A stretch of DNA of 44,500 nt, from contig JAKFXL010000035.1 of assembly GCA_021731365.1 (NCBI GenBank), positions 1-44,500 on the forward strand, written 5' to 3'. This document shows positions 19,802 through 43,444 of this stretch, one piece after another. The notes under the pieces are model-generated. The model saw nothing but the letters and a program-made list of their open reading frames with translations, was not told the origin of the DNA and searched no databases. The first letter of the stretch is position 1; every line of letters starts with the position of its first letter. The position numbers and the translations under genes are program-made. The DNA comes from Gammaproteobacteria bacterium. GTDB taxonomy: Bacteria > Pseudomonadota > Gammaproteobacteria > Tenderiales > Tenderiaceae.

Positions 19802-19812
19802 AACAATGCAGG

Positions 19813-28049: not shown

Positions 28050-28083
28050 GCCCGGTTGACCCAGTGTTAATCGGGCTTTTTTT
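28050..28083 (+). terminator. Rho-independent terminator of ssb
   Basis: GCCCGGTTGAC (28050-28060) pairs with GTTAATCGGGC (28066-28076), allowing two G-T pairs, around a 5-nt loop. Seven Ts follow (28077-28083). Confidence 0.9.
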
Positions 28084-28175
28084 ATGGCTGGGTGCGCGTG
28101 GTATGCTGGTTCAAATCGGGTTGTGCCTTTGAGGGCTGTGAATCAAACGCTTGAGCGACATATTAGAGGAGGGGA

Positions 28176-29198
28176 ATGGACATGAAAATAGCCGTTTGCA
28201 GCGCCCAATCTTATGACCGTGAGTTTTTGTTGGCTGCCAATGCCAGCTTCAACCATGAGCTGGTGTTTTTCGATGTTCACTTGGCTGAAGAGTCGGTGCA
28301 GCTCTTCACCGGTTTTCCGGTTGTCTGCGCATTTGTAAATGATGTTTTAAACGATAGTGTACTGAAAACCATGGCAGGCCATGGCCTGCGTCTGGTTGCG
28401 TTACGCTGTGCTGGTTTTAACAATGTCGATATAGCGGCGGCAGCAAAATATGGAATCCGAGTGGTGCGTGTGCCCGGCTATTCGCCGAATTCGGTGGCCG
28501 AGCATACACTGGCGTTGATGCTTACCCTTAACCGAAAAACACATCGTGCCTTCAATCGCACCCGTGATGGAAATTTTTCACTTGAGGGATTGATGGGTTT
28601 TGAATTACATGGCCGAACCGTCGGTATCATCGGTACAGGGCGTATCGGCCAGGCAGTAGCGCAAATTCTGGCTGGATTTGGTTGCCGCCTGCTGGCCTAT
28701 GATGTATCTCAGAACGATCAGTGTAAGGCGTTAGGAGTCAATTACGTAGAGCTCGCCGAGCTGTATCGCGAGAGTGACATCATTACGTTGCATTGCCCAC
28801 TCAATCAACAGACTCATCACCTGATCGATGCCATTGCGTTGAGTCAGATGAAACGTGGCGTCATGCTCATCAATACCAGTCGTGGTGGTGTGGTGGATGC
28901 GAGTGCAGTGGTCGCCGCGCTTAAATCCGGTCACATCGGACATCTTGGGTTGGATGTATATGAACAGGAAGGTGATCTGTTTTTCCATGATTTATCCGAC
29001 CAAGTGATACAGGATGACGTTTTCCAACGCTTGCTGACATTCCCAAATGTGCTGATCACAGGGCATCAGGGATTTTTTACCAGGGAGGCCATGTCGAACA
29101 TTGCCCAAACCACACTGCAAAATATCAGCCGGTTTGAGGAGGCAGGGCAGTGCCAGAATGAGGTGACCGTAGAGTTGATTAATTCAAAACCGCAATGA
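28176..29198 (+). CDS. 2-hydroxyacid dehydrogenase, D-lactate dehydrogenase type
   Basis: The 340-residue protein belongs to the D-isomer-specific 2-hydroxyacid dehydrogenases and resembles fermentative LdhA (NADH-dependent reduction of pyruvate to D-lactate). Visible features are the Rossmann motif (GIIGTGRIGQAV, about 150-161), the catalytic Arg in INTSRGGVVD, Glu in DVYEQEGDLFF and His in ITGHQGFFT. The segment LRCAGFNNVDI is typical of LdhA. GAGGAGGGGA precedes the ATG; a second ATG six bases on is also possible. It stands alone. Substrate is inferred; another 2-keto acid is possible. Confidence 0.88.
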   Translation: MDMKIAVCSAQSYDREFLLAANASFNHELVFFDVHLAEESVQLFTGFPVVCAFVNDVLNDSVLKTMAGHGLRLVALRCAGFNNVDIAAAAKYGIRVVRVPGYSPNSVAEHTLALMLTLNRKTHRAFNRTRDGNFSLEGLMGFELHGRTVGIIGTGRIGQAVAQILAGFGCRLLAYDVSQNDQCKALGVNYVELAELYRESDIITLHCPLNQQTHHLIDAIALSQMKRGVMLINTSRGGVVDASAVVAALKSGHIGHLGLDVYEQEGDLFFHDLSDQVIQDDVFQRLLTFPNVLITGHQGFFTREAMSNIAQTTLQNISRFEEAGQCQNEVTVELINSKPQ

Positions 29199-29245
29199 TT
29201 GATGTGGTCAGCAGAGATGTTGGGTTTTATTTGTATTAGTTCAGA

Positions 29246-30078
29246 CTTGATCTGACACCTGACTTGAAAAAGAGAGGGTTACCGGTTTTGATGGAAGTGC
29301 AAGCTAACCATTAAGACCAAAGAGAGGTAACCCCCATGTTAAATAGTAACGAGAGAATCATCAAGCACAAGGTCGGGCTGCTGAATCTGGCAGAAGAACT
29401 CGGCAATGTCTCGCAAGCCTGCAAAGTGATGGGGATGTCGCGAGAGACCTTCTACCGCTACAAGGCGGCCGTCGAGGGCGGGGGGCACAGCGCCTCTGGC
29501 CAACTGCGTACCCGTAACGAGTTGAGAAAGCTCGGCGTCTTCCGTCTCCCCCAGCGGGGTTGTAGTGGCATAGTTAATTTGGCCGCTCCACTCCAAGGTC
29601 GCCTTTGCCAAGCTCTACACGACCAAGACGCTCATCACCTCAGCTGATCTGCTCAATGACCGGATACTGCCTTTCTTTGAAGAGCATGGACTGCCGATGC
29701 TGCGGATACTCACTGATCGCGGCACCGAGTACTGCGGCAAGGTGGAGCGCCGTGATTACCAGCTCTATCTGGCGTTGAATGAGATCGAGCACACCAAGAC
29801 CAATGGCATCTGTGAACGGTTCCACAAGACCATCCTGCAGGAGTTCTATCAGATCACTTTCCGCAAGAAGGTCTACACAGATATAGAATCACTACAGTGT
29901 CGATCTGGACATCTGGCTGGTGCACTACAATAATGAACGGACACATCAAGGTAAGGTGTGTTGTGGCCGAACGCCGATGGCAACACTGGAGGACGGTAAG
30001 AAAGTCTGGTAGGAAAAATTCGTGAACTGAATTTGACTTGACAGCCACTTCGGCAAAATCGGTAACTGTCAGATCGAG
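29246..30078 (+). mobile_element. Decayed IS481-family insertion sequence
   Basis: Imperfect terminal inverted repeats bound the element: CTTGATCTGACA (29246-29257) and TGTCAGATCGAG (30067-30078), 11 of 12 matching. At 833 bp it is shorter than the usual IS481 length (about 1-1.3 kb) because the middle of the transposase gene is deleted. I see no certain target duplication. It is probably no longer able to move. Confidence 0.8.
29336..30012 (+). pseudogene. Transposase of IS481 type, broken
   Basis: The N-terminal HTH (KHKVGLLNLAEELGNVSQACKVMGMSRETFYRYK) is intact. The reading frame is then joined by a deletion to a shifted frame (RTRNELRKLGVF onward). A different frame carries the DDE core: ILTDRGTEYCGKVE with the second Asp, then NGICERFHKTILQEF with the Glu. 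The linker normally between HTKT and NGIC is missing. A further frameshift near 29900 precedes the C-terminal NNERTHQGKVCCGRTP. At least two frameshifts and one deletion mean no functional transposase is made. Confidence 0.85.
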
Positions 30079-30107
30079 TTTCGACTACTACAGATTAAGT
30101 AACTGGG

Positions 30108-30698
30108 TTACTGTTTTGCAGTCTTAAACAGTTCATAGAGGGTTCCCTGATCGGGTAGCCCCGTTTGGGGTTGCTGAATATTTTTTTGAAACTTTTTAAC
30201 GGCAATTTTAAGCTTTTCATCGTACTGTACGTCATTAACATTGCCACTGTAGAGATTGCGTGATTTCAGCGCATTTTTGATACGTTTTACAACCTCTTCC
30301 TGATATACGTATTTATCAATAGAGATAAACTTGCCGCCTTGGGTGACTTTCTGTGGCATAAGCTCAGCAATGAGTATTTGAACAGCCGATTGAAATGTCA
30401 TGTCTGGTTTTTGTTTGCAGAGTGCCTCGGCCGCTATTAACATGAGCTGCGTTGATTGCCATGGGGCCAAGTCAAAAGTATTGGCCTGTTGTTGATTGAT
30501 GGCTGTGAGGTAGCCTTCCAGCCAGCCGCCGAAAACCAGATAAATATCATCTTTTTTCTGATGGAACTCTATAAACTTTGAACATTTTGCAATGCCCGCC
30601 CCTTTTATAGCAAAGGCGTCATTACTGTCCGCGGCAAAAGAGATTGAAGGGAATATCAGTGCACAGAAGACCCAGATTGAAACATTTTTAAAACTCAT
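30108..30698 (-). CDS. Periplasmic protein with peptidoglycan-binding-like domain
   Basis: The 196-residue product has a signal peptide (about 1-23, ending PSISFAADS). A helical domain follows (about 30-125; Cys in AKCSKFIEF and EALCKQ, motif GGWLEGYLTAIN), then a C-terminal PG_binding_1-like repeat (about 150-190; FQKNIQQPQTGLPDQGTLYELF). Such proteins are often linked to cell-wall or polymer processes; the exact function is unknown. I start it at 30698 because the frame further up runs through the terminator at 30735-30766. It may depend on read-through from the PEP-CTERM gene or on a short promoter in the 36-bp gap. Confidence 0.72.
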   Translation of the reverse strand: MSFKNVSIWVFCALIFPSISFAADSNDAFAIKGAGIAKCSKFIEFHQKKDDIYLVFGGWLEGYLTAINQQQANTFDLAPWQSTQLMLIAAEALCKQKPDMTFQSAVQILIAELMPQKVTQGGKFISIDKYVYQEEVVKRIKNALKSRNLYSGNVNDVQYDEKLKIAVKKFQKNIQQPQTGLPDQGTLYELFKTAKQ

Positions 30699-30734
30699 GG
30701 CATAGTACTCTGGTTGCGATGGTGCTAAAAACGA

Positions 30735-30766
30735 AAAGGGCCGCACTTATGTAAGTACGGCCCTTT
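30735..30766 (-). terminator. Terminator of the PEP-CTERM gene
   Basis: AAAGGGCCGCACTTA (30735-30749) and TAAGTACGGCCCTTT (30752-30766) form a stem with one mismatch. On the minus strand the T-rich run after the stem (revcomp of 30727-30737) completes a Rho-independent terminator; a weaker T-run lies on the plus side. Confidence 0.85.
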
Positions 30767-30788
30767 CTGTAACGATGTTACTGGTGCG

Positions 30789-31667
30789 TTATGCTGTCTT
30801 ACGACGGCGTGCAGCGGCAACACCCATTCCCAGTAGACCAGCGCCTAACAGTGCCAATGAGGTTGGCTCAGGGATAGAGTCAGCACGGTAGGTGTTACCA
30901 CCGGTCAGACTAAGCCCTTCTGGGCAGGTCGCAGTGGCGGCGCAAGAACGTGGGTTAAATTGCGAGGTGAAACGGAAGTCACTGTCGTCTACTTGGCTGT
31001 CAGTATTGAAGTTCATGGCGGCTGCACCACCAACAACGTCCATCTGTCCGAAGCCATTCCCGCCTTCAGTACCAGTTCCCAGTGCTCCAGTGGTGAGAGT
31101 GGAGAACAGTGTGCCATTCAGAGTGCTGGAGCCAAAGGTGGCGGTCAGTGTATGACCAACCAAGCTTAACCAAAGGGCGTTAGCTCCGCCTTCATCACTA
31201 CCTGATGCTGATGCGCCGGAGTTGAAGTCAGGTGTGTAATCGACGTAAAACTTACTCCAGCCACCAGTGAATGAGATGTGGTCGCCAGCATTTGCCGCGC
31301 CATTACTGTCCACATCAAGCAGCTCGTTCAGGAAGTAGCCACCAAACTCATAAGTGAGCTCACAGCCTGGGCAGAAAGTAGTGGTATCGCCATTGATATT
31401 GGTGATCTTGCCGTAGCCCTTGAGTTCAGTGCTGGTGCTGAACGCGTATTTGGTAGGAACGCCTGGGGCGCCTGGGCTAATTAATGTCAGTGGGCCAGTC
31501 GGGGTTGCTACTGATTCGTATAATGTATCAGTGGCGAAAAAATCGTCAAAGTTGTCTGGATCCCAAACAACACCACCAACGTTTATGGGGCCGGCTTGTG
31601 CCTGCATTGCAAAGGCCAACGCGGCAGTGGCGGCTGCTGTTTTAAATATATTGCTGTAATTTGCCAT
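30789..31667 (-). CDS. PEP-CTERM sorting domain protein
   Basis: The 292-residue protein has a signal peptide (about 1-26, ending MQAQAGP) and a C-terminal sorting signal: Pro-Glu-Pro in SIPEPTSLALL, a hydrophobic helix and a basic tail RRRKTA. This is the substrate type of exosortase A, which cuts after PEP and likely attaches or releases the protein at the surface together with exopolysaccharide. The body is rich in Gly, Ser, Thr and Asp, with a Cys pair FCPGC near residue 100. It is positioned next to the XrtA EPS locus. A sigma-54-type promoter lies upstream. A possible adhesive or matrix protein. Confidence 0.95.
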   Translation of the reverse strand: MANYSNIFKTAAATAALAFAMQAQAGPINVGGVVWDPDNFDDFFATDTLYESVATPTGPLTLISPGAPGVPTKYAFSTSTELKGYGKITNINGDTTTFCPGCELTYEFGGYFLNELLDVDSNGAANAGDHISFTGGWSKFYVDYTPDFNSGASASGSDEGGANALWLSLVGHTLTATFGSSTLNGTLFSTLTTGALGTGTEGGNGFGQMDVVGGAAAMNFNTDSQVDDSDFRFTSQFNPRSCAATATCPEGLSLTGGNTYRADSIPEPTSLALLGAGLLGMGVAAARRRKTA

Positions 31668-31760
31668 GGTATTTAACTCCTGAAAGCGAGTGTCTGTTTT
31701 GTTAAGCGCTACGAGGTTGGATTGTCCTGTAGTTCCAAAATTATTTCTCGATTAGAGTAA

Positions 31761-31776
31761 AGCACATGCCGTGCCA
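31761..31776 (-). promoter_or_regulatory. Sigma-54-type promoter of the PEP-CTERM gene
   Basis: On the minus strand the sequence TGGCACGGCATGTGCT matches the -24/-12 consensus (TGGCACG-N4-TTGCW) at all but one consensus position, with the GG and GC in the correct spacing. It lies about 95 bp upstream of the ATG. PEP-CTERM genes in floc-forming proteobacteria are known to depend on RpoN and the PrsK-PrsR system, so this site is plausible in function too. Confidence 0.7.
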
Positions 31777-31806
31777 TTTTTGTTTTTTTAACGTAACTAA
31801 TTGTTT

Positions 31807-32937
31807 CTATTTGATATTTTTTGTTGGTGACATTTCTTGTTGGGTTGGCTTTTGCCGTGGTTGTAAAAAATCCTGACAATGAGTGGATGTTTTTAAAAAG
31901 CTGTCGATGGGGCGGCGCTGGTTGTAAATGGTTTTACTCCTGTGTGTGGTGATACCCGTTCGCAGAAGGATCAGTCCTTGGTGATGGCCTGATATTGCCT
32001 GCATTAGCGTGCCTATTTTTTGGCAGCGGGGGGGGAGTGCTGCAGGCGTTTGTATAAAACCCAGTGAAAAAATTCCTGCCGCAGCAAAGGGTTGTAGCGA
32101 TAAATTATGCGTGGTGGCATTTAGCCAGACACGCTGTAGTGCTTGCCCAGCCATGATGATGCTTGCCCGGTCTGTCTGTTTTATGGTGAGAAGGGCGAGC
32201 GCGGGCGAGAGCAGTGTGGGTAGTACTGTTGAGCGAAACCCTACCAGGTAGTTTCCTCCCACACAGTTTAATAGGCGCATTATTTTCCAGTGGCGAAGTA
32301 ATTTGAAGAGCGGGCGCATGGGTGGCTCTATCGATAGGGTGGCTGGGGCTAGCCCCTCCTGGCTGGTTGAGTGGCTGTCTAGATCAAAATGGATGCTGGA
32401 AAACAGTTCCTGGTGGAGCTCTTTTGTGCTGAAGCGGAGGCTTTCCGCTAGCCACATGGCTTTAAGGGCTGTTTTATAACGGGGAGTGTCATCTAGCCAA
32501 TGTAGCGTTATCCCTTCCTGTTTTTTGGCTTCATTAGATAGGGTCTGTTTGGTGGTGGCTGTGATGGGGCCTTTCCAAGGAAAGCTACGGCTTGTGTGGC
32601 GCTTGGGGATGGAGGCGGCCAGAGGTGCGTGTTGTGCAGGTGTGGGTAGAAACGTGAGGCTTGCAGCCCAAAGCGGTTCTTTGTCAGGCGAAGGGAGATA
32701 GGTTGCCTGACATGTGTGGTTGTGTGAGTGCGCACAAATGGTAATATTTTCGATGCAGCAGCCTATGGCGAGGTCGCTCAGTACAAAACGTTGGTCGGAG
32801 ATGCCGCCACTGCGGCTGTTATCAATCCAGAGCTCAAGTGTCTCGTCATTCCAGCGGTAGAGCCATGGTTGCGAGTTGTCTGCTGACGGCGCAAGAATGG
32901 CGGCCTCTATAAGCTGTTGCTTTAATTCGGATTCCAT
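31807..32937 (-). CDS. Nitroreductase-family protein
   Basis: The 376-residue protein resembles nitroreductase-type flavoproteins (FMN-binding; LIEAAILAPSADNSQPWLY at the start, which is the family's N-terminal motif). A second half carries TSRSFPWKGP-like and MAGQALQRVWLNATTHNLSLQPFAA segments, typical of the larger oxidoreductases that act on small molecules or peptides. The ATG at 32937 starts the motif and leaves 13 bp after the upstream ThiF-like gene. It is the third gene of the acyltransferase-ThiF-nitroreductase cassette. Substrate is unknown. The C-terminal 30 residues are basic and poorly conserved. Confidence 0.82.
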   Translation of the reverse strand: MESELKQQLIEAAILAPSADNSQPWLYRWNDETLELWIDNSRSGGISDQRFVLSDLAIGCCIENITICAHSHNHTCQATYLPSPDKEPLWAASLTFLPTPAQHAPLAASIPKRHTSRSFPWKGPITATTKQTLSNEAKKQEGITLHWLDDTPRYKTALKAMWLAESLRFSTKELHQELFSSIHFDLDSHSTSQEGLAPATLSIEPPMRPLFKLLRHWKIMRLLNCVGGNYLVGFRSTVLPTLLSPALALLTIKQTDRASIIMAGQALQRVWLNATTHNLSLQPFAAAGIFSLGFIQTPAALPPRCQKIGTLMQAISGHHQGLILLRTGITTHRSKTIYNQRRPIDSFLKTSTHCQDFLQPRQKPTQQEMSPTKNIK

Positions 32938-32950
32938 AGCGATTTGCCGA

Positions 32951-33823
32951 TTATTGGGTGGGTGGGCGTTTGCGGAGTATTCGCCGGGCGATGATTTTGG
33001 CAATCTTCAGTGTGGGGTGCCGCACTCCGCCGGGACGCCATGTGTGTGCCAGTTTGTTGCGGTAGGCATCGAACTGGAGGCCGTGAGGGGCGCTACGAAC
33101 GCCCTTTCGGTTGAGTAATATTTTGAGCGCTTCGGTGGCGGCCAGTCCGGCGCAGAGTTCGCAGGCCATGGGGGTGGAGGGGCCGCGGTGCTGCTCAAAG
33201 TCCACCGTGGATGGGTCGGCAAGGTAGGTGCGTTGTAACATTGCTGGGGAGAGACCGACCAGAAAGTTGAGTAGCTGCTCCTTTTCTGGCAGCCCATCCA
33301 GGCGGAAGTACTCTTCAAAGGTCATTTTGCCGGGCAGAAAGTTGAGCAGTGCGGCCCCCATTCCTAGTGGTGCTGCGGTGATGGCGGGGATCTGTTTCTG
33401 GGCACATGCCTCAAACACCATGCGGCGGGCGGATACGGCAAAAAAGTCTAGTCCATCGACATACAGGTCAACCCCGGCCATGAATTCGTTGATATTGTCA
33501 GGCAAGATGCCGCCTGCAAACCGGGTGATATTGAGTTCAGGATTGATATCCAGTACCGCCTCGGCCATCGCATCAACCTTGGGGCGGTTGAGGTTGCTGA
33601 TGTTCGCGCCCGCCTGCCGGTTGAAGTTGGCAAGTTCAAAATGGTCAAAATCGGCTATGTGAAAGTTGCCGATCCCAAGGCGTGTCAGTGTTAACAGATG
33701 GCTGCCACCAACGCCGCCCATTCCGCCAATAGCGATACGTTTACTGCGTAGGAGTTGCTGCTCTTCTGCGGTGACCCAGCCGGTATTGCGTGAAAATGCA
33801 TGGGTATAGTCAAACAGGCTCAT
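32951..33823 (-). CDS. ThiF/E1-like adenylyltransferase protein
   Basis: The 290-residue protein is an E1/ThiF/MoeB-family Rossmann protein. It has the nucleotide loop GGMGGVGGSH (about 33-42), the Asp and Asn-Arg residues of DFDHFELANFNRQ (about 58-70), Lys in RPKVDAMAE and Asp in DGLDFFAVSARR. Relatives adenylate the C-terminus of a carrier protein or peptide. Only one CxxC (ACELCAG) is visible, whereas MoeB and ThiF have two zinc-binding pairs, so it is divergent. Its start overlaps the stop of the upstream acyltransferase by 4 bp (ATGA), and the nitroreductase follows 13 bp later. In Rv1355c-type proteins ThiF and nitroreductase domains are fused, supporting a shared pathway. Confidence 0.87.
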   Translation of the reverse strand: MSLFDYTHAFSRNTGWVTAEEQQLLRSKRIAIGGMGGVGGSHLLTLTRLGIGNFHIADFDHFELANFNRQAGANISNLNRPKVDAMAEAVLDINPELNITRFAGGILPDNINEFMAGVDLYVDGLDFFAVSARRMVFEACAQKQIPAITAAPLGMGAALLNFLPGKMTFEEYFRLDGLPEKEQLLNFLVGLSPAMLQRTYLADPSTVDFEQHRGPSTPMACELCAGLAATEALKILLNRKGVRSAPHGLQFDAYRNKLAHTWRPGGVRHPTLKIAKIIARRILRKRPPTQ

Positions 33824-34572
33824 TTTTGTGGGGTTGCCTGCTGGGACGTGGTTTCCAGCTGACGCTGAATGTTGTGCAGCAGCTCAACCAGATCGGGTTT
33901 GAGGTTGCTGAATAGACTAGCACGGCTGATGTAAAACGGCGCTCGTGTGCCACGGTGCTCGATAGTATCACCGGTCTGTTCAAACAGGATGCCAAAGCGG
34001 CGCAGTTGCCGCGCAAGGCGGGGTTCCATCATGGCAAATACACCGTCCAGCCCTTGATTGAGGCCCATGGCGGTGATTGCGACGTAGAGTCCCAGTGCGA
34101 CGGAGGGGAAGCGGCGGCGCGCATCATCGTCCTGGTTGTCGATGGATTCGCTACCACCATCGGGGTATTGGGATTCGCCGCGACGGCGGCGGAAGTTTGC
34201 GGTGATGGCTAGTCGTGATATTTCACCATATTGGCTTCGTTCGTTGCCTGATGGGCCGTCAAACGCCCATTTGAGCTTCTCATTGCAGGCATTTTCCAGT
34301 GGAAATTTGGCGTTAGCGTCATGGCTGTCGGCCAGGATCAGCCGAATGCAGCCAGCGTAGGTTTGGCTTGGCTTGTGGAATAGTAGGCAGTGGATTGAGC
34401 GCAAGTCGTAATCGTCAAACTCCAGATGGTTGGCCCGTTGCGCCTCATAGCCAAGCTCTTCGCAATAGACCTGGTGGCGGATTGTGTATACCTTTTTTAT
34501 GAGGTCTTCGCTGCTGGCCGGGATGACACTGAAATAGCCATCAAAGAGTGTCGCAATGGTGGGTGCGGTCAT
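33820..34572 (-). CDS. PEP-CTERM/exosortase-associated acyltransferase (copy 1)
   Basis: The 250-residue protein belongs to the group of acyltransferases found with exosortase systems (TIGR03694), related to the LuxI-type autoinducer-synthase fold. Typical segments are VYTIRHQVYCEELGYE (about 26-41), GCIRLILAD, GEISRLAITANFRRR and MEPRLARQLRRFGI. The members probably move an acyl group from ACP or CoA; the acceptor is unknown. The frame opens with TTG at 34584; I chose the ATG at 34572. It is first in the leftward cassette and translationally coupled to the ThiF-like gene. A charged insert (about 140-155, SQYPDGGSESIDNQDDDARRR) follows the active-site region. Confidence 0.87.
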   Translation of the reverse strand: MTAPTIATLFDGYFSVIPASSEDLIKKVYTIRHQVYCEELGYEAQRANHLEFDDYDLRSIHCLLFHKPSQTYAGCIRLILADSHDANAKFPLENACNEKLKWAFDGPSGNERSQYGEISRLAITANFRRRRGESQYPDGGSESIDNQDDDARRRFPSVALGLYVAITAMGLNQGLDGVFAMMEPRLARQLRRFGILFEQTGDTIEHRGTRAPFYISRASLFSNLKPDLVELLHNIQRQLETTSQQATPQK

Positions 34573-34818
34573 GGTTATGTGCAACTCTGCCTGCTGGTGA
34601 TGGGTTAATAGAAGGTGGCTCGCGAAGAGTATATATTAAAAGTTTAAATAGGGGTGGTGTGGTAATTGCTTACCGGTTTGGTGGGTTGCAGGGAGGGGGA
34701 TTATTGGTTATATAATGCCCGGTGATTCAGGCGGTGTGGTTGTGTTAAGAGGGTGTCAGGATGATGTCTTGCTTTTCCGTGCTGCTAAATAATAGTCTCG
34801 TGTAAAGGGAGTGATGGG
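34573..34818. promoter_or_regulatory. Divergent promoter region of two acyltransferase genes
   Basis: The 246-bp AT-rich gap holds GGTAA (34661-34665) and TTACC (34670-34674), a dyad that could be an operator, and TATAAT (34711-34716) with TTGCAG 19 bp before it as a possible sigma-70 promoter for the rightward gene. The assignment is weak. Confidence 0.35.
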
Positions 34819-35574
34819 GTGATTTTTGATGACCGTTATGAGGTCTTTCTTGCGGATACAAGGGAGGCAATGAGCCTTCACTATCACTTGAGGTATCAGG
34901 TCTATCACGTTGAAACAGGTTGGGAGTCAGATAAACATCTGGTTGGTGGTAAGCTTGAACGAGATCAGTATGATGCCTTTTCCAAACATTTTCTGGTGCG
35001 TGATCGATTAACTCGTGAGTGGGCAGGGGGGATGCGTCTGGTTGTCTCGGGTTTTAATGAGTTGCCTCTGGCGCGGGTGAGTCAACTTGACCGTATTGCT
35101 GGCATCGAGTTTGATCAAAGCCATTGTGTTGAGGTTTCCCGTCTGTTTGTTTTGCCTGATTACCGCGGTGGTCGCCGTTATGGTGAGGTTTCCGCGGTGA
35201 AAAAACGTACGTCAGCCTCTTATTTTGAGGTAATGCTCGGACTGATCCGGGCTGCCCGTTCGTTTGGGTTGCATAACGGTTTGAAAAGTTGGTACTTTTT
35301 GGTGGAGCCAGGGTTGGCTCGGAGTATCCAACGTTTGGGTATTGACCTTTACTGTTGTGGTCCGGAGGTTGATTATCGCGGTATCAGGCGTCCCTACTAT
35401 GGCGAGGTCTCCAGTTGTTTTGACCGCATATTGTCCGCTCCTTCTGAGCTGTCCACGATGTTTTCCCGCAAGGAGGCCTACCGGTCTTTTTCCCGCTCGT
35501 TCATTGAGCCTCCCAGCCTTGATGCTGTTAATGGTTGTTTTGGAGCGTTAAATTGTTCGGGTATGGGGGCTTGA
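34819..35574 (+). CDS. PEP-CTERM/exosortase-associated acyltransferase (copy 2)
   Basis: The 251-residue protein is a second member of the exosortase-associated acyltransferase group, only loosely similar to copy 1. It shares the arrangement LHYHLRYQVYHVETGWE (about 20-36), AGGMRLVVSG, CVEVSRLFVLPDYR and LVEPGLARSIQRLGI. It starts with GTG at 34819; AAAGGGAG and TGGGG lie upstream and the nearby ATG is out of frame. Divergent from the acyltransferase-ThiF-nitroreductase cassette and pointing towards the EPS operon, from which it is separated by 209 bp. Confidence 0.85.
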   Translation: MIFDDRYEVFLADTREAMSLHYHLRYQVYHVETGWESDKHLVGGKLERDQYDAFSKHFLVRDRLTREWAGGMRLVVSGFNELPLARVSQLDRIAGIEFDQSHCVEVSRLFVLPDYRGGRRYGEVSAVKKRTSASYFEVMLGLIRAARSFGLHNGLKSWYFLVEPGLARSIQRLGIDLYCCGPEVDYRGIRRPYYGEVSSCFDRILSAPSELSTMFSRKEAYRSFSRSFIEPPSLDAVNGCFGALNCSGMGA

Positions 35575-35783
35575 ATGTATCCGTACGGAAATAGCTAACC
35601 TATATTTGTCTCTGTGTATATGGGGGCTGCTGCGGCGAGAATTAAAGGGAGATGGAGTTTATCTGTCCTATTCATGGAGGGTTGCAAACTGTTACAATTT
35701 GCGGCTAAAAACAATTAGTTGTTAAAGTACTCTCCCGGTTTGTCGAAAACACATTGAACGTGTCTGTGTATAAGGAAAACAAC

Positions 35784-36413
35784 GTGCAAAATTACCGTCA
35801 CAAGGCTATGGCCTGTATCTTTTGTTTGGTTGTTGGCGTCTGGGGACTGAGTGGCTGTGCTACCACTAGTGTGCCCTTGATGGATGAAGAGTTAAGCAAG
35901 GTTAATGATTATAACTACATTATTGGGCCGGGTGATAATGTCAATATCTTTGTCTGGCGTAACCAAGAGGTCTCCATGTCCGTGCCGGTTCGCCCTGACG
36001 GCAAGATCACCACACCATTGGTGGAGGATTTGCAGGCCAGTGGTAAAACCCCCGCAGCGCTTGCGCGTGATATAGAAAAAGTACTCTCTGCGTATATTAA
36101 GGACCCGGCGGTGACTGTGATAGTGACGGGGTTTATTGGCCCTTACGATCAGCAGGTCCGTGTTGTGGGTGAGGCAACTAAACCCCAGGCGCTGGCTTAC
36201 CGGACACGCATGACGCTGCTTGACGTTATGATTGCGGTGGGTGGTTTAACTGAGTTTGCAGCGGGTAATCGTACAACGTTGGTGCGTCGTATTAATGGTC
36301 AGGAGCAGAAGTATCAGGTCCGTGTTAATGATCTGATTAAGGACGGGGATATAGGTGCCAATGTTTATATGTTGCCCGGTGATGTATTAATCATTCCGGA
36401 ATCATGGCTCTAG
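35784..36413 (+). CDS. XrtA-system polysaccharide export lipoprotein (Wza-like)
   Basis: This outer-membrane polysaccharide export protein of the Poly_export/SLBB type forms the exit channel. The 209-residue product has a lipoprotein signal with lipobox LSGC (Cys about 27) and the export motif YNYIIGPGDNVNIFVWRN. An SLBB-like region (GEATKPQALAYRTRMTLLDV) and the ending MLPGDVLIIPESWL follow. I chose the GTG at 35784 because AAGGA is 7 bp upstream; a TTG at 35754 is also in frame. It is the first gene of the EPS operon. Members of this type are the smaller exports found with XrtA. Confidence 0.9.
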   Translation: MQNYRHKAMACIFCLVVGVWGLSGCATTSVPLMDEELSKVNDYNYIIGPGDNVNIFVWRNQEVSMSVPVRPDGKITTPLVEDLQASGKTPAALARDIEKVLSAYIKDPAVTVIVTGFIGPYDQQVRVVGEATKPQALAYRTRMTLLDVMIAVGGLTEFAAGNRTTLVRRINGQEQKYQVRVNDLIKDGDIGANVYMLPGDVLIIPESWL

Positions 36414-36456
36414 TGCCGCTAAGATTAAAGATTGACGTGGGCACCTAGAGGGGCGT

Positions 36457-38034
36457 ATGCAGGAAATTCTGGTCCAAATGTATGGTTACCTCCGTGGTAT
36501 CTGGCGGAGACGTTGGCCGATGTTGCTCATGGCATGGTTTGTTTGTCTTATTGGTTGGGGCTTTGTACTGAAAATGCCCGATCAATACGAGGCATCGGCA
36601 AAGGTATATGTCGATACCGGCTCCATGTTGCAACCACTGCTGCGTGGTATTGCTGTTGAAAGCAATATGGGTGAGCAGATTGAACTGATCACCAAAACAC
36701 TCTTTTCCCGCCCCAACCTTGAGCAGGTTGCACGTATGACAGATCTGGACCTGCAGGCAAAAAATGAGTTAGAGAATGATGAGCTGCTGGAGTCTATTAA
36801 GAAACGGGTGACTCTGGATGGTGGTGGGCGGCAGAATATCTTCACTATTGGTTATGTTGATGAAAACCCTGAGATGGCCAAAAAGGTAGTTCAGGCGTTT
36901 TTGACGATTTTTGTGGAGAGCTCTTTAGGTACCACGCGTAAAGATAGTGACGTTGCCCAAAAGTTTATTGATGCTCAGATTCAGGAGTATGAAACCCGTT
37001 TGTTGGAGGCGGAGGAGCGGGTTAAGGAGTTTAAACAGAAGAATGTCGGCATGATGCCTGCGACATCAGGTGGGGACTATTTTTCCAGACTGACCGCTGA
37101 ACGGGCCAGCTATGAGGCGGCGCAGCAACGGCTGGAAGAGGTGATGAGGCGCCGCGATGAGATTAAACGCCAAATCCTGGGTGAGGAGCCCACGTTTGGT
37201 CTGGCGCCGTCGGCCAATATCTTCTCGGGAGGGGTCTCCCATCCGTTGGATGGGCGGATCGCTGAGATGGAAAAGCAGATAGATGAGTTGCTATTAAAAT
37301 ATACCAATAAGCACCCGGATGTGGTGTCACTGAAAGATACGGTACAGCGTTTAAAACAGCAGCGTCAGCGTGAGCTGGACGAGGCGAGAAAAAAGATGCC
37401 GGAGTTGATGGATGCGGGGCCAGCGCTGCAACAGAACCCGGTGTATCAACAGATGAAAATATCCCTGGGGCAGGCGGAGGCGGAGGCGGCATCTCTTAAT
37501 GTGCGTGTCAGGCAGGCTCGTGAGTCTTTGGCTCAACTGGAGCGTTTGGTTGATACCATTCCGTCAGTAGAGGCAGAGTTCCAGCGTCTTAATCGAGATT
37601 ACAGCATTGTTAAATCCAATTATGAGCAACTGCTCTCCCGGCGTGAATCGGCACGTGTGGGGCAGGATGCTGAAGCGTCAGGGGACAGTGTTAAATTTAA
37701 GGTGGTTGACCCACCACGTGTGCCGCTGGAGCCAACAGGGCCAAATCGTAGGCTATTTGTAAGTGTGGTGCTGCTGGTTGGTTTAGGGGCTGGCATTGGA
37801 TTGGCGCTGTTTATGTCTCAGGTAAAACAGACGTTTGATACACGAGCGACTCTGCGAGAGGCAACGGGCTTACCGGTGCTTGGCAGTGTCTCAATGGAGT
37901 GGACTCCGGCGCAGCGAATGCGCTTGCGAATTGAAACAGCTGTGTTTATGGGTGTTAGCTCATTTCTCCTACTAGTGTTTGTAGTGGTCCTATTGTTGCA
38001 GGAAAAGCTTGCGGGCTTAGTGGGGCGGATATGA
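36457..38034 (+). CDS. XrtA-system chain-length determinant (Wzz/GumC-like)
   Basis: The 525-residue inner-membrane co-polymerase has two membrane helices (about 23-40, MAWFVCLIGWGFVL, and about 430-450 or the last 497-518) and a long periplasmic part. The coiled coil spans roughly residues 165-400 (EERVKEFKQK, LPELMD-type repeats). A Pro-rich motif DPPRVPLEPTGPNR lies just before the second helix. Such proteins control polymer length and pass the chain to the export lipoprotein. It overlaps the kinase start by 4 bp, so the two are translationally coupled. Confidence 0.9.
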   Translation: MQEILVQMYGYLRGIWRRRWPMLLMAWFVCLIGWGFVLKMPDQYEASAKVYVDTGSMLQPLLRGIAVESNMGEQIELITKTLFSRPNLEQVARMTDLDLQAKNELENDELLESIKKRVTLDGGGRQNIFTIGYVDENPEMAKKVVQAFLTIFVESSLGTTRKDSDVAQKFIDAQIQEYETRLLEAEERVKEFKQKNVGMMPATSGGDYFSRLTAERASYEAAQQRLEEVMRRRDEIKRQILGEEPTFGLAPSANIFSGGVSHPLDGRIAEMEKQIDELLLKYTNKHPDVVSLKDTVQRLKQQRQRELDEARKKMPELMDAGPALQQNPVYQQMKISLGQAEAEAASLNVRVRQARESLAQLERLVDTIPSVEAEFQRLNRDYSIVKSNYEQLLSRRESARVGQDAEASGDSVKFKVVDPPRVPLEPTGPNRRLFVSVVLLVGLGAGIGLALFMSQVKQTFDTRATLREATGLPVLGSVSMEWTPAQRMRLRIETAVFMGVSSFLLLVFVVVLLLQEKLAGLVGRI

Positions 38035-38948
38035 GCACGATAGAAAAGGCACTGGAAAAACTCAGGCAAAGTTCCGGCCAGCTAGCAGGCAAGGTGGCGG
38101 CTGCCCCAGCAAAAGCAGTCGGTGCTCCGGTGGTTATGCCAGATCCGTCTGGTAACAGCGTTTCAGCTCAGCACTCCGCCGAGACTGCACCATCCAGCAG
38201 TGCAGCGAAGAATAGTCATCGGATGGTCTTGGATCTGCTTCGACTTGAGAAAATGGGATTTCTTACGCCGGAGTCTGGCAGGAGTCAGCTTGCCGAGGAG
38301 ATGCGCCATATTAAACGTCCGTTATTGTTGAATGCGTTTGGTGATCATGTCGATTTTGGCAGCAATAATCTCAATCTAATTATGGTTACCAGCTCGAGGC
38401 CGGGGGAGGGGAAGACCTATACCTCGTTAAATCTGGCGATGAGCATTGCTAAAGAGCGTGATAAAACGGTGTTGTTGGTTGATGCGGATGTTGCCAAACC
38501 GGGTGTCACGCGTGTTTTGAATATGGAATCAGCTAAGGGTCTGGTTGACTATCTGCTCGATGATACCTTGTCTATTCCTGATGTTATGATGCGAACCAAC
38601 GTACCTAATCTGCGATTTATTCCCGCAGGCAAGAGACATATTCACTCGACTGAGTTGCTTACGAGTGAAAACATGAAACAGCTGACGGAGGAGTTGGCCA
38701 CACGTTATCCCGATCGTGTTGTGATTTTTGATTCCCCTCCACTATTGGCTACCAGCGAAGCGTCGGTGGTGGCGGAGCTGGTGGGGCAGATTGTCATGGT
38801 GGTTGAGGCGGAGCAGACCTCTAGTGACGAGGTGCGGGAGGCGCTGAGTCTCATTGCGGAAAATAAGATACTGGGGTTGATATTAAACAAGGCCCGTGGC
38901 TCATTTGGCACCGACTATTACGGCTATTACGGTAAGTACGGTGAGTGA
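38031..38948 (+). CDS. XrtA-system tyrosine autokinase
   Basis: The 305-residue bacterial tyrosine kinase is of the Wzc/CapB type (TIGR03018). It has a Walker A loop (SSRPGEGKT, about 121-129), a Walker A' region (LLVDADVAKPG, about 148-158) and Walker B (VIFDSPPLL). A Tyr-rich tail YYGYYGKYGE is the likely autophosphorylation cluster. Phosphorylation would control the neighbouring chain-length protein. The N-terminus (1-60) is Ala/Ser-rich and disordered. ATG overlaps the previous stop. Confidence 0.92.
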   Translation: MSTIEKALEKLRQSSGQLAGKVAAAPAKAVGAPVVMPDPSGNSVSAQHSAETAPSSSAAKNSHRMVLDLLRLEKMGFLTPESGRSQLAEEMRHIKRPLLLNAFGDHVDFGSNNLNLIMVTSSRPGEGKTYTSLNLAMSIAKERDKTVLLVDADVAKPGVTRVLNMESAKGLVDYLLDDTLSIPDVMMRTNVPNLRFIPAGKRHIHSTELLTSENMKQLTEELATRYPDRVVIFDSPPLLATSEASVVAELVGQIVMVVEAEQTSSDEVREALSLIAENKILGLILNKARGSFGTDYYGYYGKYGE

Positions 38949-38966
38949 AAAGTTGAGTTGCCTGTG

Positions 38967-40457
38967 ATGGGGACGTGGGATAAACCAGGATGGTTTTTGG
39001 CATTGTGTGTTGTAGGGTTGGCGCACGGTGAAACTGCGCTTGCTATTGAGTGGCAGGTCGCACCGCAGGTTGACGTTGCTGAAACTTACAGTGACAACAT
39101 CACTCTGGCACCTGATACCGCTATTGCCAATGAGGACTATGTTACTCAGATAGCGCCAAGTATAGCTGTTAAGGGTAAGGGGAACAGGCTAACCCTAGAC
39201 TCCCGTTATACGTTACAAAATCTCTATTACGCTGAGGACTCTGGCCGTAATCAGAGCCATAATCAATTTCATTTGGCGACGGACGCAGAGTTAATTGATC
39301 AGTTTTTTTACCTCTCTGCCAGCGCCCAAATTGTCCAGCAGCAGTTAACGGCAGGCGGTGTAGTGGCGGATAATCTGAATGTTAACTCCGGGCGTGGCGA
39401 TGTAGTGACCACTCGTATTGAACCTAGAGTCAAGCGTAGGCTGGGTAAGTTTGTTGAGTTTGATCTCTCTTATTCAGAGGGGCGGATTAATTATGACAGT
39501 GACTCCATTGCCGATGGGCGATTAGAGGAGACTAAGTTGTTGCTGGGACGTAGCCAGGATTCAACAAAGCTGGATTGGCAGCTAAGGTACAGTCAATCAG
39601 AGCAGTGGGTGACGGATACATTGAGTGTTGAGCGCCAACAGAGCGCGGCTACATTTCGATACCCTGCCTTTGACTCCGTCAGTCTGGTTGCTAATGGTGG
39701 CCGGGAGGAGGGGCGTATTAGTAACTCCAGAAACTATCAAGAGGGCGCTTACTGGAGCGCAGGTCTTCGTTGGGATCCATCGCCCCACTTTTCACTGGAG
39801 GCAGCGAGTGGTGACAAGGATCAACAGGCGCGCTTGTCGTGGATCCCAGGTATTAGAACCTCCGTGAATGTCAGTTACTTGAATCGTGATGTTGGTGTGC
39901 GCGTCAGTGATATCTGGACCGCCACATTTCAACACACAACACGCCGCACACGCTGGCTGTTTACCCGCTTTAAAGAGATAACAAACGATGCCACCCTGGC
40001 GATTGTGGATGTTAATGGCGATCTGATTCGTGGAGAGAGTTATTTGAGGATTATTAGTTACTTTGGCATTACTGAAGAGAGTTTTGCCCGCACCAGCAGT
40101 GAGGGGAGCGTGATGTATGGGGCTAGAAGAAATGACTTTAGCTTAGGGATCAATAGTGAACAGCGTGACTATCAGTTGAGTGGTCGTCAGGCGCAGTTGC
40201 ATGGTGGCTATCTGGGATGGGGATTTAAGTTGTCAGCCAAGGCCAGCTCGGATTTGAAATACCGCGTGGATCGCTCCACGGGAAATAGTGGTGGTAATGA
40301 CATTGAAACAGTGAGTCTGGCGTGGTCACTGAAGCGTTCATTTGGAAAACAGATCAGCGCCGGGCTTGAAATGAGAACAACTGAGATTGATGGTGGTGTG
40401 GCAAACGTAAACCGCAGCGAAAACCGTCTCTCTGCTAATGCAAGAGTGATTTTCTGA
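38967..40457 (+). CDS. XrtA-system outer-membrane beta-barrel protein
   Basis: The 496-residue protein is of the TIGR03016 type (outer-membrane protein of PEP-CTERM EPS loci). A signal peptide (about 1-26) is followed by repeated amphipathic strands (DLSYSEGRINYDSD, TKLDWQLRYSQSEQWV, SVSYLNRD-like), ending in Phe (NARVIF), as expected for a BAM substrate. I chose the ATG at 38967; TTG at 38958 is also in frame. It lies between the kinase and the AAA ATPase genes and has only a 2-bp gap after its stop. Its role in polymer passage is unproven. Confidence 0.88.
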   Translation: MGTWDKPGWFLALCVVGLAHGETALAIEWQVAPQVDVAETYSDNITLAPDTAIANEDYVTQIAPSIAVKGKGNRLTLDSRYTLQNLYYAEDSGRNQSHNQFHLATDAELIDQFFYLSASAQIVQQQLTAGGVVADNLNVNSGRGDVVTTRIEPRVKRRLGKFVEFDLSYSEGRINYDSDSIADGRLEETKLLLGRSQDSTKLDWQLRYSQSEQWVTDTLSVERQQSAATFRYPAFDSVSLVANGGREEGRISNSRNYQEGAYWSAGLRWDPSPHFSLEAASGDKDQQARLSWIPGIRTSVNVSYLNRDVGVRVSDIWTATFQHTTRRTRWLFTRFKEITNDATLAIVDVNGDLIRGESYLRIISYFGITEESFARTSSEGSVMYGARRNDFSLGINSEQRDYQLSGRQAQLHGGYLGWGFKLSAKASSDLKYRVDRSTGNSGGNDIETVSLAWSLKRSFGKQISAGLEMRTTEIDGGVANVNRSENRLSANARVIF

Positions 40458-40459
40458 TT

Positions 40460-41449
40460 ATGTATGAGTCATTTTACAAACTGAATGCCAAACCTTTCCA
40501 GCTTAGTCCGGATCCCCGTTTCTTTTTTGGGAGCCAGGGCCATAAGCGGGCGATGTCCTATTTGCGTTACGGACTCTCTCAGGGCGAGGGATTTATTATA
40601 ATTACTGGTGGTGTGGGGACGGGTAAAACCACGCTGGTTAGAGCTTTGTTTGAAGATTTGGCTAAAGAGAATGTGGTCGCTGCACAATTGGTCACAACCC
40701 ATCTTGAAGCGGATGATACCTTGCGGATGGCAGCGGCTTCGTTTGGACTTGCCCATGAGGGGGCAAGTAAGGCGGCGATTCTTAAAAACCTGGAGACATT
40801 TTTGTTAGCACGGACGCGCGAAGGCAAACGTGTTCTGCTGGTGATTGATGAGGCGCAAAACCTGCCGGTAGCTTCGCTTGAAGAGTTGCGTATGCTCTCC
40901 AACTTTCAGGAAGATGGTCGGGCATTGTTGCAAAGTTTTTTGTTGGGACAAGAAGAGTTCAAAGCAACCCTGCAGCTTGACGGTCTGGAGCAGTTGCGCC
41001 AGCGAGTGATTGCCGCCTATCACCTTGAGCCATTATCGGCAGAGGAGTCACGAGAGTATATTGAACATCGCCTTAAACTGGTTGGCTGGAATCGCGATCC
41101 TGAAATTACTGCCGCTGCTTATGGCGAAATATTTACCTATACCACGGGTGTGCCACGCAAGATAAATACCTTTTGCGATCGGCTGATGTTATTTGGCTAC
41201 CTGGAAGAGCTACATAAGCTCGATATTGAGCAGGTGCGCGAGGTGATAGCAGAGCTGCGGCAGGAGAGCCCTGTAATGGAGGCGGTGCTTGGCCGGCCTG
41301 TGGACACACCAACCACGCCGGTTGGGTTCTCTTATTCGCAGGAGAGAGAGCAGCGCGATGGGCTGGAAGATCGCGTCAGTATTCTTGAGGGTCGTATAGA
41401 TATCCTGGAAAAGGCTTTCCGCCGACTGCTCGAAACGGGGCGACGTTAG
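40460..41449 (+). CDS. XrtA-associated AAA ATPase, ExeA-like
   Basis: The 329-residue AAA ATPase is of the TIGR03015/ExeA type. It has a Walker A motif GGVGTGKTT (about 50-58) and Walker B VLLVIDEAQN (about 124-133). The start MYESFYKLNAKPFQLSPDPRFFF is the group signature, and the C-terminal part ends in a coiled coil (about 295-329; LEDRVSILEGRIDILEKAF). ExeA proteins help type II secretion assembly; here it probably drives EPS or PEP-CTERM transport. It starts 2 bp after the beta-barrel stop. Confidence 0.92.
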   Translation: MYESFYKLNAKPFQLSPDPRFFFGSQGHKRAMSYLRYGLSQGEGFIIITGGVGTGKTTLVRALFEDLAKENVVAAQLVTTHLEADDTLRMAAASFGLAHEGASKAAILKNLETFLLARTREGKRVLLVIDEAQNLPVASLEELRMLSNFQEDGRALLQSFLLGQEEFKATLQLDGLEQLRQRVIAAYHLEPLSAEESREYIEHRLKLVGWNRDPEITAAAYGEIFTYTTGVPRKINTFCDRLMLFGYLEELHKLDIEQVREVIAELRQESPVMEAVLGRPVDTPTTPVGFSYSQEREQRDGLEDRVSILEGRIDILEKAFRRLLETGRR

Positions 41450-41468
41450 ATTGAATGGGACGGCAGCT

Positions 41469-42608
41469 ATGATGCATGACGATAACAGGGTCAAAATAGT
41501 CTGTGTTGTGGGTGCACGGCCCAATTTTATGAAAATTGCCCCGATCATTAGTCAGATGCAGCGTCAGGAGAGCCGGTTAATGCCTTATCTGGTTCACACC
41601 GGGCAGCATTATGACAACGAGATGAAACACAGTTTCTTTGAGCAGTTGGGTATTCCTGAGCCGGATGTTGATCTGGGAGTGGGGTCAGGCAGCCATGCTG
41701 TGCAAACGGCAGAGGTGATGCGTCGTTTTGAGCCTGTATTGGATGAGCAGCAACCGGCCGCGATCCTCGTTGTGGGCGATGTAAACTCAACCATTGCCTG
41801 TGCGCTGGTGGCGGTTAAAAAAGGTGTGCCGGTTATTCATGTTGAGGCTGGACTGCGTAGTTTTGATCGCACCATGCCGGAAGAGATTAATCGCATCTTG
41901 ACGGATCAGATCTCCGATTACCTTTTTACGACCGAGCGTGCAGCGGCGGATAACCTGACACGTGAAGGTATTGGTGGCGAGCGGGTTCAGTTTGTTGGCA
42001 ACGTCATGATCGATACCTTGCTTAATAATTTGAAACGGGCCACCCCCTTTGACAAAACGTTGGCTAAGTACGTTAAAGATCAAACACTCTATCGTGACGG
42101 ATTTGGTTTGTTAACCATGCATCGTCCCTCCAATGTTGATGATGGGGTTGTGTTAGAGCGGTTGTTAACGGCGGTAGGGAAGATAAGCCATGACCTCCCC
42201 ATTCTGTTTCCTGTGCACCCACGAACGGCCGCGAAAATTGAACAGTTTGGTTTGCAATCCTTGTTTAATGCAGTACGTATCCAGCAGTTGCCCCCTCTAG
42301 GGTACCTCGATCTGCTCGGTATTATGGCAGAAGCAAAGTTGGTATTGACCGATTCTGGCGGTATTCAGGAGGAGACCACGGCGTTAGGCGTGCCATGTAT
42401 TACGTTGCGTGAAAATACTGAGCGCCCTATTACGGTTGATGAAGGGACAAACACTATTGTGGGTACAGATGCCCAGCGTATTGTGGATGTTGCTTATGAA
42501 GTCATTACACACGGTGGCAAGCGAGGTTGCGTGCCTGAGTATTGGGATGGCCGGGCGGCGGAACGCATTGTGGCATTTTTAGAGCAACGTTTTGCCGGAC
42601 AGGTATGA
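41469..42608 (+). CDS. wecB: UDP-N-acetylglucosamine 2-epimerase
   Basis: WecB interconverts UDP-GlcNAc and UDP-ManNAc in the cytoplasm. The 379-residue protein has VVGARPNFMKIAPI at the start, HTGQHYDNEM, VVGDVNSTIACALVA, HVEAGLRSFDRTMPEEINR, TMHRPSNVD, and TDSGGIQEET with LRENTERPIT. Length and motifs are standard for the family. The frame opens with TTG at 41451; ATG at 41469 has GGGA 8 bp upstream. It overlaps the deacetylase gene by 4 bp. It supplies a sugar for the EPS repeat unit. Confidence 0.95.
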   Translation: MMHDDNRVKIVCVVGARPNFMKIAPIISQMQRQESRLMPYLVHTGQHYDNEMKHSFFEQLGIPEPDVDLGVGSGSHAVQTAEVMRRFEPVLDEQQPAAILVVGDVNSTIACALVAVKKGVPVIHVEAGLRSFDRTMPEEINRILTDQISDYLFTTERAAADNLTREGIGGERVQFVGNVMIDTLLNNLKRATPFDKTLAKYVKDQTLYRDGFGLLTMHRPSNVDDGVVLERLLTAVGKISHDLPILFPVHPRTAAKIEQFGLQSLFNAVRIQQLPPLGYLDLLGIMAEAKLVLTDSGGIQEETTALGVPCITLRENTERPITVDEGTNTIVGTDAQRIVDVAYEVITHGGKRGCVPEYWDGRAAERIVAFLEQRFAGQV

Positions 42609-43444
42609 CAGTGGCGCTGCGGAATGCAATGACAGTAGATGTAGAGGACTATTTTCAAGTCTCCGCGTTTGAAAAACATATTGACCGTGCCGATTGGGAC
42701 CGCTTGCCTCATCGGGTTGAACAGAATACCCACCGTATTCTCGACCTATTTAATGAGCATGATGTTAAGGCTACTTTTTTTACATTGGGTTGGGTTGCAG
42801 AGCGTTATCCTGACTTGATAAAACGGATGGTGAAAGAAGGCCATGAACTTGCCAGCCACGGTTATTCCCATGTGCGCGTGACCCAACAGACCCCCGCTGA
42901 GTTTCGGGCGGATGTGATTAAGACAAAAATGTTGCTGGAGGATCTCTCAGGCGTTGTGATTAAAGGGTATCGTGCAGCCAGCTACTCCATCAATGAGTCC
43001 AACATGTGGGCGTTGAAGATTCTGGAGGAGACGGGGCATCTGTATAGCTCCAGCATCTACCCGGTAAAACATGATCTATACGGTGTGCCTGATGCGCCAC
43101 GTTTTTCATTCAGGCCTCATGGTGATAGTGGAATCCTTGAAATACCGATTACCACTATTGAGCTGTTTGGAAAAAAACTGCCCTGTGGTGGCGGTGGCTT
43201 TTTTAGACTCTACCCTTACCCGTTTTCGCGTTGGGCGATCAACCGGATCAATCAGCAGGATGGGCAGTCAGGTATTTTCTATTTCCATCCCTGGGAGATC
43301 GATGTGGATCAGCCACAACAGCGTAACATTGGTATGAAGACCCGGTTTAGACACTACTTAAATCTCGGGAAAATGCATAATCGCCTCTCCAGACTGCTTC
43401 ACGATTTTGCATGGGATCGAATGGATAAGGTCTTTGGTGTCTAG
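42605..43444 (+). CDS. XrtA-system polysaccharide deacetylase
   Basis: The 279-residue protein is a NodB-homology deacetylase with a DUF3473 extension (TIGR03006 type) and probably removes acetyl groups from the EPS. It has the metal-site Asp in TVDVEDYFQV (about 10-19), TFFTLGWVAERYP, the H-x3-H site GHELASHGYSHVRV, KGYRAASYS and a C-terminal YFHPWEIDVDQPQ. The ATG at 42605 overlaps the wecB stop. The protein lacks a signal peptide, as usual for the group, so a cytoplasmic or peripheral location is possible. Confidence 0.92.
   Translation: MTVALRNAMTVDVEDYFQVSAFEKHIDRADWDRLPHRVEQNTHRILDLFNEHDVKATFFTLGWVAERYPDLIKRMVKEGHELASHGYSHVRVTQQTPAEFRADVIKTKMLLEDLSGVVIKGYRAASYSINESNMWALKILEETGHLYSSSIYPVKHDLYGVPDAPRFSFRPHGDSGILEIPITTIELFGKKLPCGGGGFFRLYPYPFSRWAINRINQQDGQSGIFYFHPWEIDVDQPQQRNIGMKTRFRHYLNLGKMHNRLSRLLHDFAWDRMDKVFGV

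Follow-up and report, generated by a model that had tools for sequence, protein, structure and literature searches.

We analysed a 44,500-nucleotide stretch of DNA (the window) from a gammaproteobacterium of the Tenderiaceae (assembly GCA_021731365.1, contig JAKFXL010000035.1, positions 1 to 44,500). It carries a three-gene cassette for an N-acyl amino acid synthase (NAS1), a ThiF-like ATP-dependent cyclase and a flavin mononucleotide (FMN)-dependent oxidase/desaturase (FDO), beside an exopolysaccharide (EPS) operon of the XrtA exosortase type (Table 1). The original prediction, made from the sequence, described three leftward genes packed with a 4-bp overlap and a 13-bp gap, and a second, divergent acyltransferase of the same group (NAS2); the coordinates agree with the sequence, and both synthases score above the TIGR03694 cut-off. 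About 246 bp lie between the divergent NAS1 and NAS2. The open reading frame (ORF) of NAS1 opens with TTG, and alignment with relatives makes the in-frame ATG at 34572 the likelier start. The start of the FDO was taken as the ATG at 32937; the mechanical ORF from 33003 merely uses a longer upstream start. The EPS operon encodes an export protein, a chain-length determinant, a tyrosine autokinase, a TIGR03016 outer-membrane protein, an ATPase, WecB and a polysaccharide deacetylase.

Table 1. Positions in the window of the cassette and the features around it
Feature	Position	Strand	Evidence
NAS1, N-acyl amino acid synthase	33820..34584	-	TIGR03694 238 bits vs cut-off 111.95; Pfam FeeM and Autoind_synth
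ThiF-like ATP-dependent cyclase (PRK08223 family)	32951..33823	-	NF006077 432 bits vs cut-off 266
FDO, FMN-dependent oxidase/desaturase, nitroreductase superfamily, Acg-like	31807..32937	-	family models below cut-off, and fold
Overlap of NAS1 stop and ThiF start, ATGA, 4 bp	33820..33823	-	sequence
Gap from ThiF stop to FDO start, 13 bp	32938..32950	-	sequence
NAS2, second exosort_acyl synthase, EPS-operon type	34819..35574	+	TIGR03694 142 bits vs cut-off 111.95; GTG start
XrtA-type EPS operon, headed by NAS2	35754..43444	+	seven NCBIfam models over cut-off
PEP-CTERM protein, tail IPEPTSLALLGAGLLGMGVAAARRRKTA, directly downstream of FDO, same strand	30789..31667	-	PF07589 and TIGR02595 over cut-off
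Terminator-like hairpin, 15-bp stem, after PEP-CTERM gene	30734..30767	-	consensus scan

Linkage of the cyclase family to the XrtA/PEP-CTERM system

Linkage was scored in 80 related loci from other genomes, 47 of which were full-length. Fused cyclase and FDO genes occurred in 20 of these loci; in 45 others the two were separate but within 200 bp, and in a further 5 they were within 5 kb. Since they are fused or at most 200 bp apart in 65 of the 80, the cassette arrangement is non-random. An NAS was found in 34 loci, 13 of which had it immediately upstream of the cyclase in the same orientation. Of the 80 loci, 57 contained a PEP-CTERM gene, 25 encoded a PrsT-like TPR protein and 17 carried XrtA-set EPS genes; 42 of the 47 full-length loci had at least one of the three. 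The PEP-CTERM genes were mostly downstream of the cyclase (59/66, p 2e-11), as in the window.

Co-occurrence was scored in 369 genomes of the class, using NF006077 over cut-off for the cyclase and TIGR03015 for the XrtA EPS ATPase. NF006077 was found in 40 genomes and TIGR03015 in 78, with both in 34. The EPS marker thus accompanied the cyclase in 34 of 40 genomes as compared with 44 of the 329 others (odds ratio 37), and in 15 of the 34 the two lay no more than 25 kb apart on one contig. The genome of the window has its own XrtA exosortase (TIGR03109 317 bits vs 208; contig G000:C26). This gene, with a fused EpsI domain, stands at the very start of its contig (G000:C26:317-1828, L123), which by gene order may directly follow the right end of the window.

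The same association recurs as a gene fusion. A megaplasmid of Nitratidesulfovibrio vulgaris (NC_008741.1, L127 9062-12031) encodes one 989-aa chain with FeeM (43-198), ThiF (316-565) and nitroreductase (from 609) domains, annotated merely as 'ThiF family adenylyltransferase' (WP_011787321.1, PRK14852). Its neighbours are genes for the XrtA ATPase, autokinase, chain-length, export and glycosyltransferase proteins as well as THxN PEP-CTERM genes, so that the fusion joins all three activities to an XrtA setting in a second phylum. It matches the window in its domains and its XrtA/PEP-CTERM neighbours and differs in being fused and in having an anaerobic host.

The cyclase family is tightly linked to the XrtA/PEP-CTERM system, and this strong link is apparently unreported; a literature search, which did not cover de Rond 2021 and Craig 2011, found no text joining exosortase, N-acyl and ThiF. 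The original prediction had proposed a link to the EPS/PEP-CTERM system and had named conserved co-occurrence and gene fusions as its check; the genome and locus counts, the frequent fusion or adjacency of cyclase and FDO and the triple fusion all uphold it.

A few observations concern the distribution of the cassette. Plasmid searches gave matches only in N. vulgaris and Bdellovibrio and hence no indication that the cassette is widely mobile. A fused cyclase-FDO on a contig filed under Planctomycetota (L057) groups with gammaproteobacterial ones, through either horizontal transfer or a binning error, and two loci under different family names (L074 and L077) have identical cyclase-FDO proteins, for which misnaming or contamination is likely. 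N. vulgaris is a sulfate reducer and anaerobic, yet it carries the full FeeM-ThiF-nitroreductase set; the published desaturation depends on O2, and the set in this anaerobe would therefore need another electron acceptor or have a microaerobic role.

Cyclase, oxidase and synthase lineages

Alignment of the cyclase with its relatives showed that R12, R69, K82, D126 and the GMGGVGG glycine loop are invariant across 26 relatives, indicating that the ATP-adenylation site is kept. We take these four residues to be the equivalents of the MoeB/ThiF active-site residues, and D126 presumably corresponds to D217 of TrzS. The predicted structure (pLDDT 91.7) gave VIA Z values of 26-27 to AclA, ThiF and MoeB; only E1-like proteins appear among the structure matches listed, which is no proof that other families are absent. 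The scores on housekeeping equivalog models were all below cut-off (MoeB 79 vs 266 bits, ThiF 89 vs 275, TcdA 60 vs 304). The nearest sequence profile is that of TcdA, an enzyme that adenylates a carboxylate and then closes a ring. The protein has only three Cys residues (140, 221 and 224) and hence a single CxxC, and the housekeeping slots are filled by other genes of the genome, two of MoeB type and one for TcdA. These results support the original view that a protein with one CxxC is neither MoeB nor ThiF, and the accompanying check for a housekeeping role in cofactor synthesis came out against such a role.

The FDO was assigned from its fold and from family models, all of which it matched below cut-off: Acg (NF047509, 142 bits, cut-off 199), Rv1355c/TrzS (NF005901, 152 bits, cut-off 476) and PRK14851. 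Its predicted structure (pLDDT 85) had Acg (2ymv) as the best Foldseek match (E 3e-15, TM 0.68/0.77). Residues A16, P17, N21, R113, R117, R269, W271 and P283 are common to the window FDO and the other cyclase-linked FDOs. Identity to relatives is 60-70% for the window cyclase but falls to about 22% when the window FDO is compared with most of the FDOs of those relatives.

A fully supported branch divides the FDO tree into a majority class of 50 rows, of which 20 are fused to the cyclase, and a minority class of 21 rows, none of which is fused (p 3e-4). The window FDO belongs to the minority class. On the cyclase tree, the minority-FDO label needs 14 changes, and a single origin was rejected both for the 21 minority rows (p-AU 1e-70) and for the nine nearest the window (p-AU 2e-7). 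These tree comparisons therefore indicate that the cyclase has repeatedly exchanged its FDO partner. A core clade of four FDOs that includes the window (A3) was discarded as evidence of exchange, since one cyclase clade was not rejected for it (p-AU 0.39). The occurrence of the window's PEP-CTERM family follows the nine-row FDO group (5/9 vs 2/62, p 2e-4), in small numbers. Grigg et al. described a minor FDO subcluster that includes TyzC and draws its members from Actinobacteria, Betaproteobacteria and Hydrogenophilalia, and the minority class, which resembles it in taxonomic range, could be TyzC-like. The exchange suggests a modular route to new products while the cyclase stays.

The two synthases of the window differ in their relationships. 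NAS1 has its catalytic Glu in a GEISRL motif (E121 of the 254-aa ORF), invariant with respect to the N. vulgaris FeeM domain, and NAS2 also keeps the residue (CVEVSRL); this Glu is the catalytic residue put forward for FeeM and put to the test in Nas354 (PMC4897644). In the NAS tree, all 13 NAS found directly upstream of a cyclase fall with NAS1 into one clade (27 rows, support 100/98). The EPS-upstream NAS, including NAS2, lie outside that clade, and NAS2 groups at 100/100 with those of L038 and L041, two loci whose layout is the same as that of the window. NAS1 and NAS2 are thus separate lineages by sequence. The tree disfavours NAS2 as a member of the cassette, and the suggestion that the second acyltransferase serves the same pathway was not borne out: NAS2 is tied to the EPS operon, for which it probably makes a different N-acyl amino acid.

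A third exosort_acyl synthase in the genome (G000:C45:25541-26233; L124 5482-6300) groups with the EPS-upstream NAS and, judging from translations, adjoins a histidine sensor kinase, a small lipoprotein-like ORF and a sigma-54-type response regulator. Five loci (L043, L049, L052, L108 and L110) have long, divergent NAS ORFs of 417-438 aa on a branch of their own, which may be NAS-PilZ fusions of the kind of Nas343 and Nas354 (PMC4897644).

A predicted oxazolone-type pathway and its alternatives

The enzyme trio itself is already known as the Oxz/Tyz/Trz oxazolone type, published in 2021-2025. TyzA/TyzB/TyzC of Mycobacterium tuberculosis and TrzA/TrzS attach an acyl group to an amino acid and carry out an ATP-dependent cyclisation and an O2-dependent desaturation (PMC10404671, PMC12856293), and the same three reactions are ascribed to OxzA/OxzB (as cited in PMC10404671), the oxazolone synthetase of Pseudoalteromonas rubra (de Rond et al. 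2021, as cited in PMC10404671 and PMC12856293). The order of cyclisation and desaturation varies among the characterised systems, and TrzAS has been studied with D217A and R540A mutants (PMC12856293). Sauer et al. 2025 found NAS, ThiF and nitroreductase trios in producers of dehydro-N-acyl-tyrosines (PMC12479983), and an oxazolone-type pathway has also been proposed for thalassotalic and kyonggic acids and the stieleriacines.

The window cassette resembles each of these systems and differs from each. OxzAB is likewise gammaproteobacterial and combines acyltransferase, ThiF and nitroreductase/FDO modules; however, OxzB is one fused protein, whereas the ThiF protein and the FDO of the window are separate and the latter is of the minority class. 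XrtA linkage is unmentioned in the accounts of OxzAB given by PMC10404671 and PMC12856293. TyzACB also consists of three separate proteins, an N-acyltransferase, a ThiF cyclase and a single-domain Acg-like FDO, but tyzA lies on the strand opposite to tyzC-tyzB, near cysK1/cysE and mmpL9, with no exosortase or EPS context described (PMC10404671). TrzA-TrzS of mycobacteria and rhodococci has the same three activities, and the window FDO matches the TrzS model below cut-off; in contrast to the window, its ThiF and FDO are fused, its substrate is tryptophan and its hosts are actinobacterial (PMC12856293). Massilia kyonggiensis, Thalassotalea sp. and Stieleria spp. have operon-like trios of overlapping or close genes, but their products are N-acyl dehydrotyrosines and an XrtA link is unreported there (PMC12479983).

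The window cassette has the makings of an oxazolone pathway: an NAS with its catalytic Glu, a ThiF cyclase with an intact ATP site and an adjacent FDO (13 bp). We consider it likely that NAS1, the ThiF protein and the FDO form an Oxz/Tyz/Trz-like lipid pathway, an auxiliary arm of the XrtA/PEP-CTERM exopolysaccharide system. From its family and conserved Glu, NAS1 would N-acylate an amino acid, probably aromatic, with a fatty acyl group taken from acyl-ACP (acyl carrier protein) or acyl-CoA (coenzyme A). The ThiF protein, given its family, its ATP site and the chemistry of OxzB, TyzB and TrzS, would adenylate the free carboxylate, so that attack by the amide oxygen closes an oxazolone. The FDO, with FMN and O2, would introduce an alpha-beta carbon double bond. 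The predicted product is a 4-ylidene acyl-oxazolone, or an N-acyl dehydro-amino acid formed by ring opening. An acylated, amino-acid-derived small molecule of this kind had been foreseen in the original prediction and agrees with the known pathway (PMC10404671, PMC12856293, PMC12479983).

The acyl-oxazolone lipid may then serve the matrix or envelope built by the XrtA system, a step suggested by the linkage and by the NAS phenotype of Methylomonas LW13, in which disruption of an NAS, of either the cyclase or the EPS type, abolished the normal distinct polysaccharide band (PMC11072679). The role in signalling or surface modification put forward in the original prediction is a candidate, as are surfactant, membrane and acyl-donor functions. 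As an electrophilic acyl donor at the surface, the oxazolone might acylate free amines of deacetylated XrtA exopolysaccharide or of PEP-CTERM proteins, with FDO class, PEP-CTERM family and EPS co-evolving. We regard this as a long shot, to which the polysaccharide deacetylase of the EPS operon, the PEP-CTERM gene after the cassette in most loci and the PEP-CTERM family that tracks FDO class are pointers only.

Several points weigh against an XrtA-associated oxazolone pathway. The NAS profile matched in only 34 of the 80 loci, so that the acyltransferase partners of some cyclases may be distantly related or unrecognised. The genomes behind the Fisher test of the EPS marker (p 2e-20) are phylogenetically non-independent and the p value is inflated, although many families are involved. 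The background density available for the PEP-CTERM locus counts is that of the window's own genome, 13 over-cut-off matches in 3.4 Mb. The relation to OxzB, TyzB/TyzC and TrzS was gauged by family models (NF005901, 152 vs 476), and the low identity of the window FDO to the majority cyclase-linked FDOs means that its reaction or substrate may differ. For this genome both the pathway and its product are predictions from genes and folds.

Of the alternatives, the one that fares best concerns the product: the final compound may tentatively be an open-chain N-acyl dehydro-amino acid, like the thalassotalic and kyonggic acids or the stieleriacines, with the oxazolone as a transient only. Producers with NAS, ThiF and nitroreductase genes gave open-chain dehydro-N-acyl-tyrosines, and oxazolones were not seen (PMC12479983). 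However, acid or methanol work-up opens oxazolones, so that the open form may be an artefact (PMC12856293), and milder quenching revealed oxazolones in mycobacteria and rhodococci.

It is unlikely that the minority-class FDO has another redox role, in which case the cassette would yield a saturated ring or an acyl amino acid. Such a role would fit the divergence of this FDO from the majority class (about 22% identity), the complete lack of cyclase fusions among minority FDOs (0/21) and the unsettled function of Acg, the nearest solved relative. Nevertheless, the window FDO occupies the same gene position as the majority FDOs, shares their invariant residues and belongs to the same fold family, and TyzC, a non-fused single-domain FDO, does desaturate (PMC10404671).

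We think it very improbable that the ThiF protein and the FDO tailor a peptide or protein, for example the PEP-CTERM neighbour, in the manner of ribosomally synthesized and post-translationally modified peptide (RiPP) pathways, rather than an N-acyl amino acid. The E1-like MccB and PaaA of RiPP pathways have the same fold as the ThiF protein, and a PEP-CTERM gene lies immediately downstream of the cassette; however, the PEP-CTERM neighbours come from several unrelated families, the 4-bp overlap and the 13-bp gap are too small for a precursor gene, and the flanking gaps hold no convincing short ORF, distant precursors being outside that search. This absence and the joining of FeeM, ThiF and FDO domains in one N. 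vulgaris chain disfavour a peptide or protein target.

A housekeeping E1 role for the ThiF protein (thiamin, molybdopterin or tRNA t6A), with incidental linkage, has its 59-89 bits on the TcdA, MoeB and ThiF models in its favour and is effectively ruled out by scores far under their cut-offs and by the dedicated MoeB-type and TcdA genes, in keeping with the single CxxC and with the presence of NF006077 in just 40 of 369 genomes, where a housekeeping gene would be commoner.

An oxazolone-type pathway ancillary to the XrtA EPS system would bear on two questions. One, which goes back to Craig et al. 2011 (as cited in PMC4897644 and PMC11072679), is why NAS accompany the PEP-CTERM/exosortase system; the other, called a major unresolved question (PMC12856293), is what physiological role acyl-oxazolones play. 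A cyclase branch that adjoins biofilm-polysaccharide and PEP-CTERM genes in many bacteria is a testable clue to the purpose of the lipid, and both questions could be tested together in the tractable Janthinobacterium, Methylomonas, Nitrosospira and N. vulgaris.

Flanking features

The PEP-CTERM gene downstream of the FDO probably belongs to the cassette unit, and the hairpin that follows is a possible end of this unit; terminator and sigma-70 promoter counts in the region showed no excess over shuffled sequence. Sigma-54 control of the cassette was considered for the site TGGCACGGCATGTGCT (31761-31776, minus strand, one mismatch) upstream of the PEP-CTERM gene and rejected, since chance alone would place 2.8 such sites in the window. 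No Rfam family matched within 28000-36500. Farther left, a short helix-turn-helix ORF (29336-29647, plus strand) reads like the N-terminal remnant of an insertion-sequence transposase. Translations from 13125-20343 (plus strand) resemble the RuBisCO large subunit and carboxysome shell, CsoS2 and carbonic anhydrase proteins, which suggests that the host is autotrophic.

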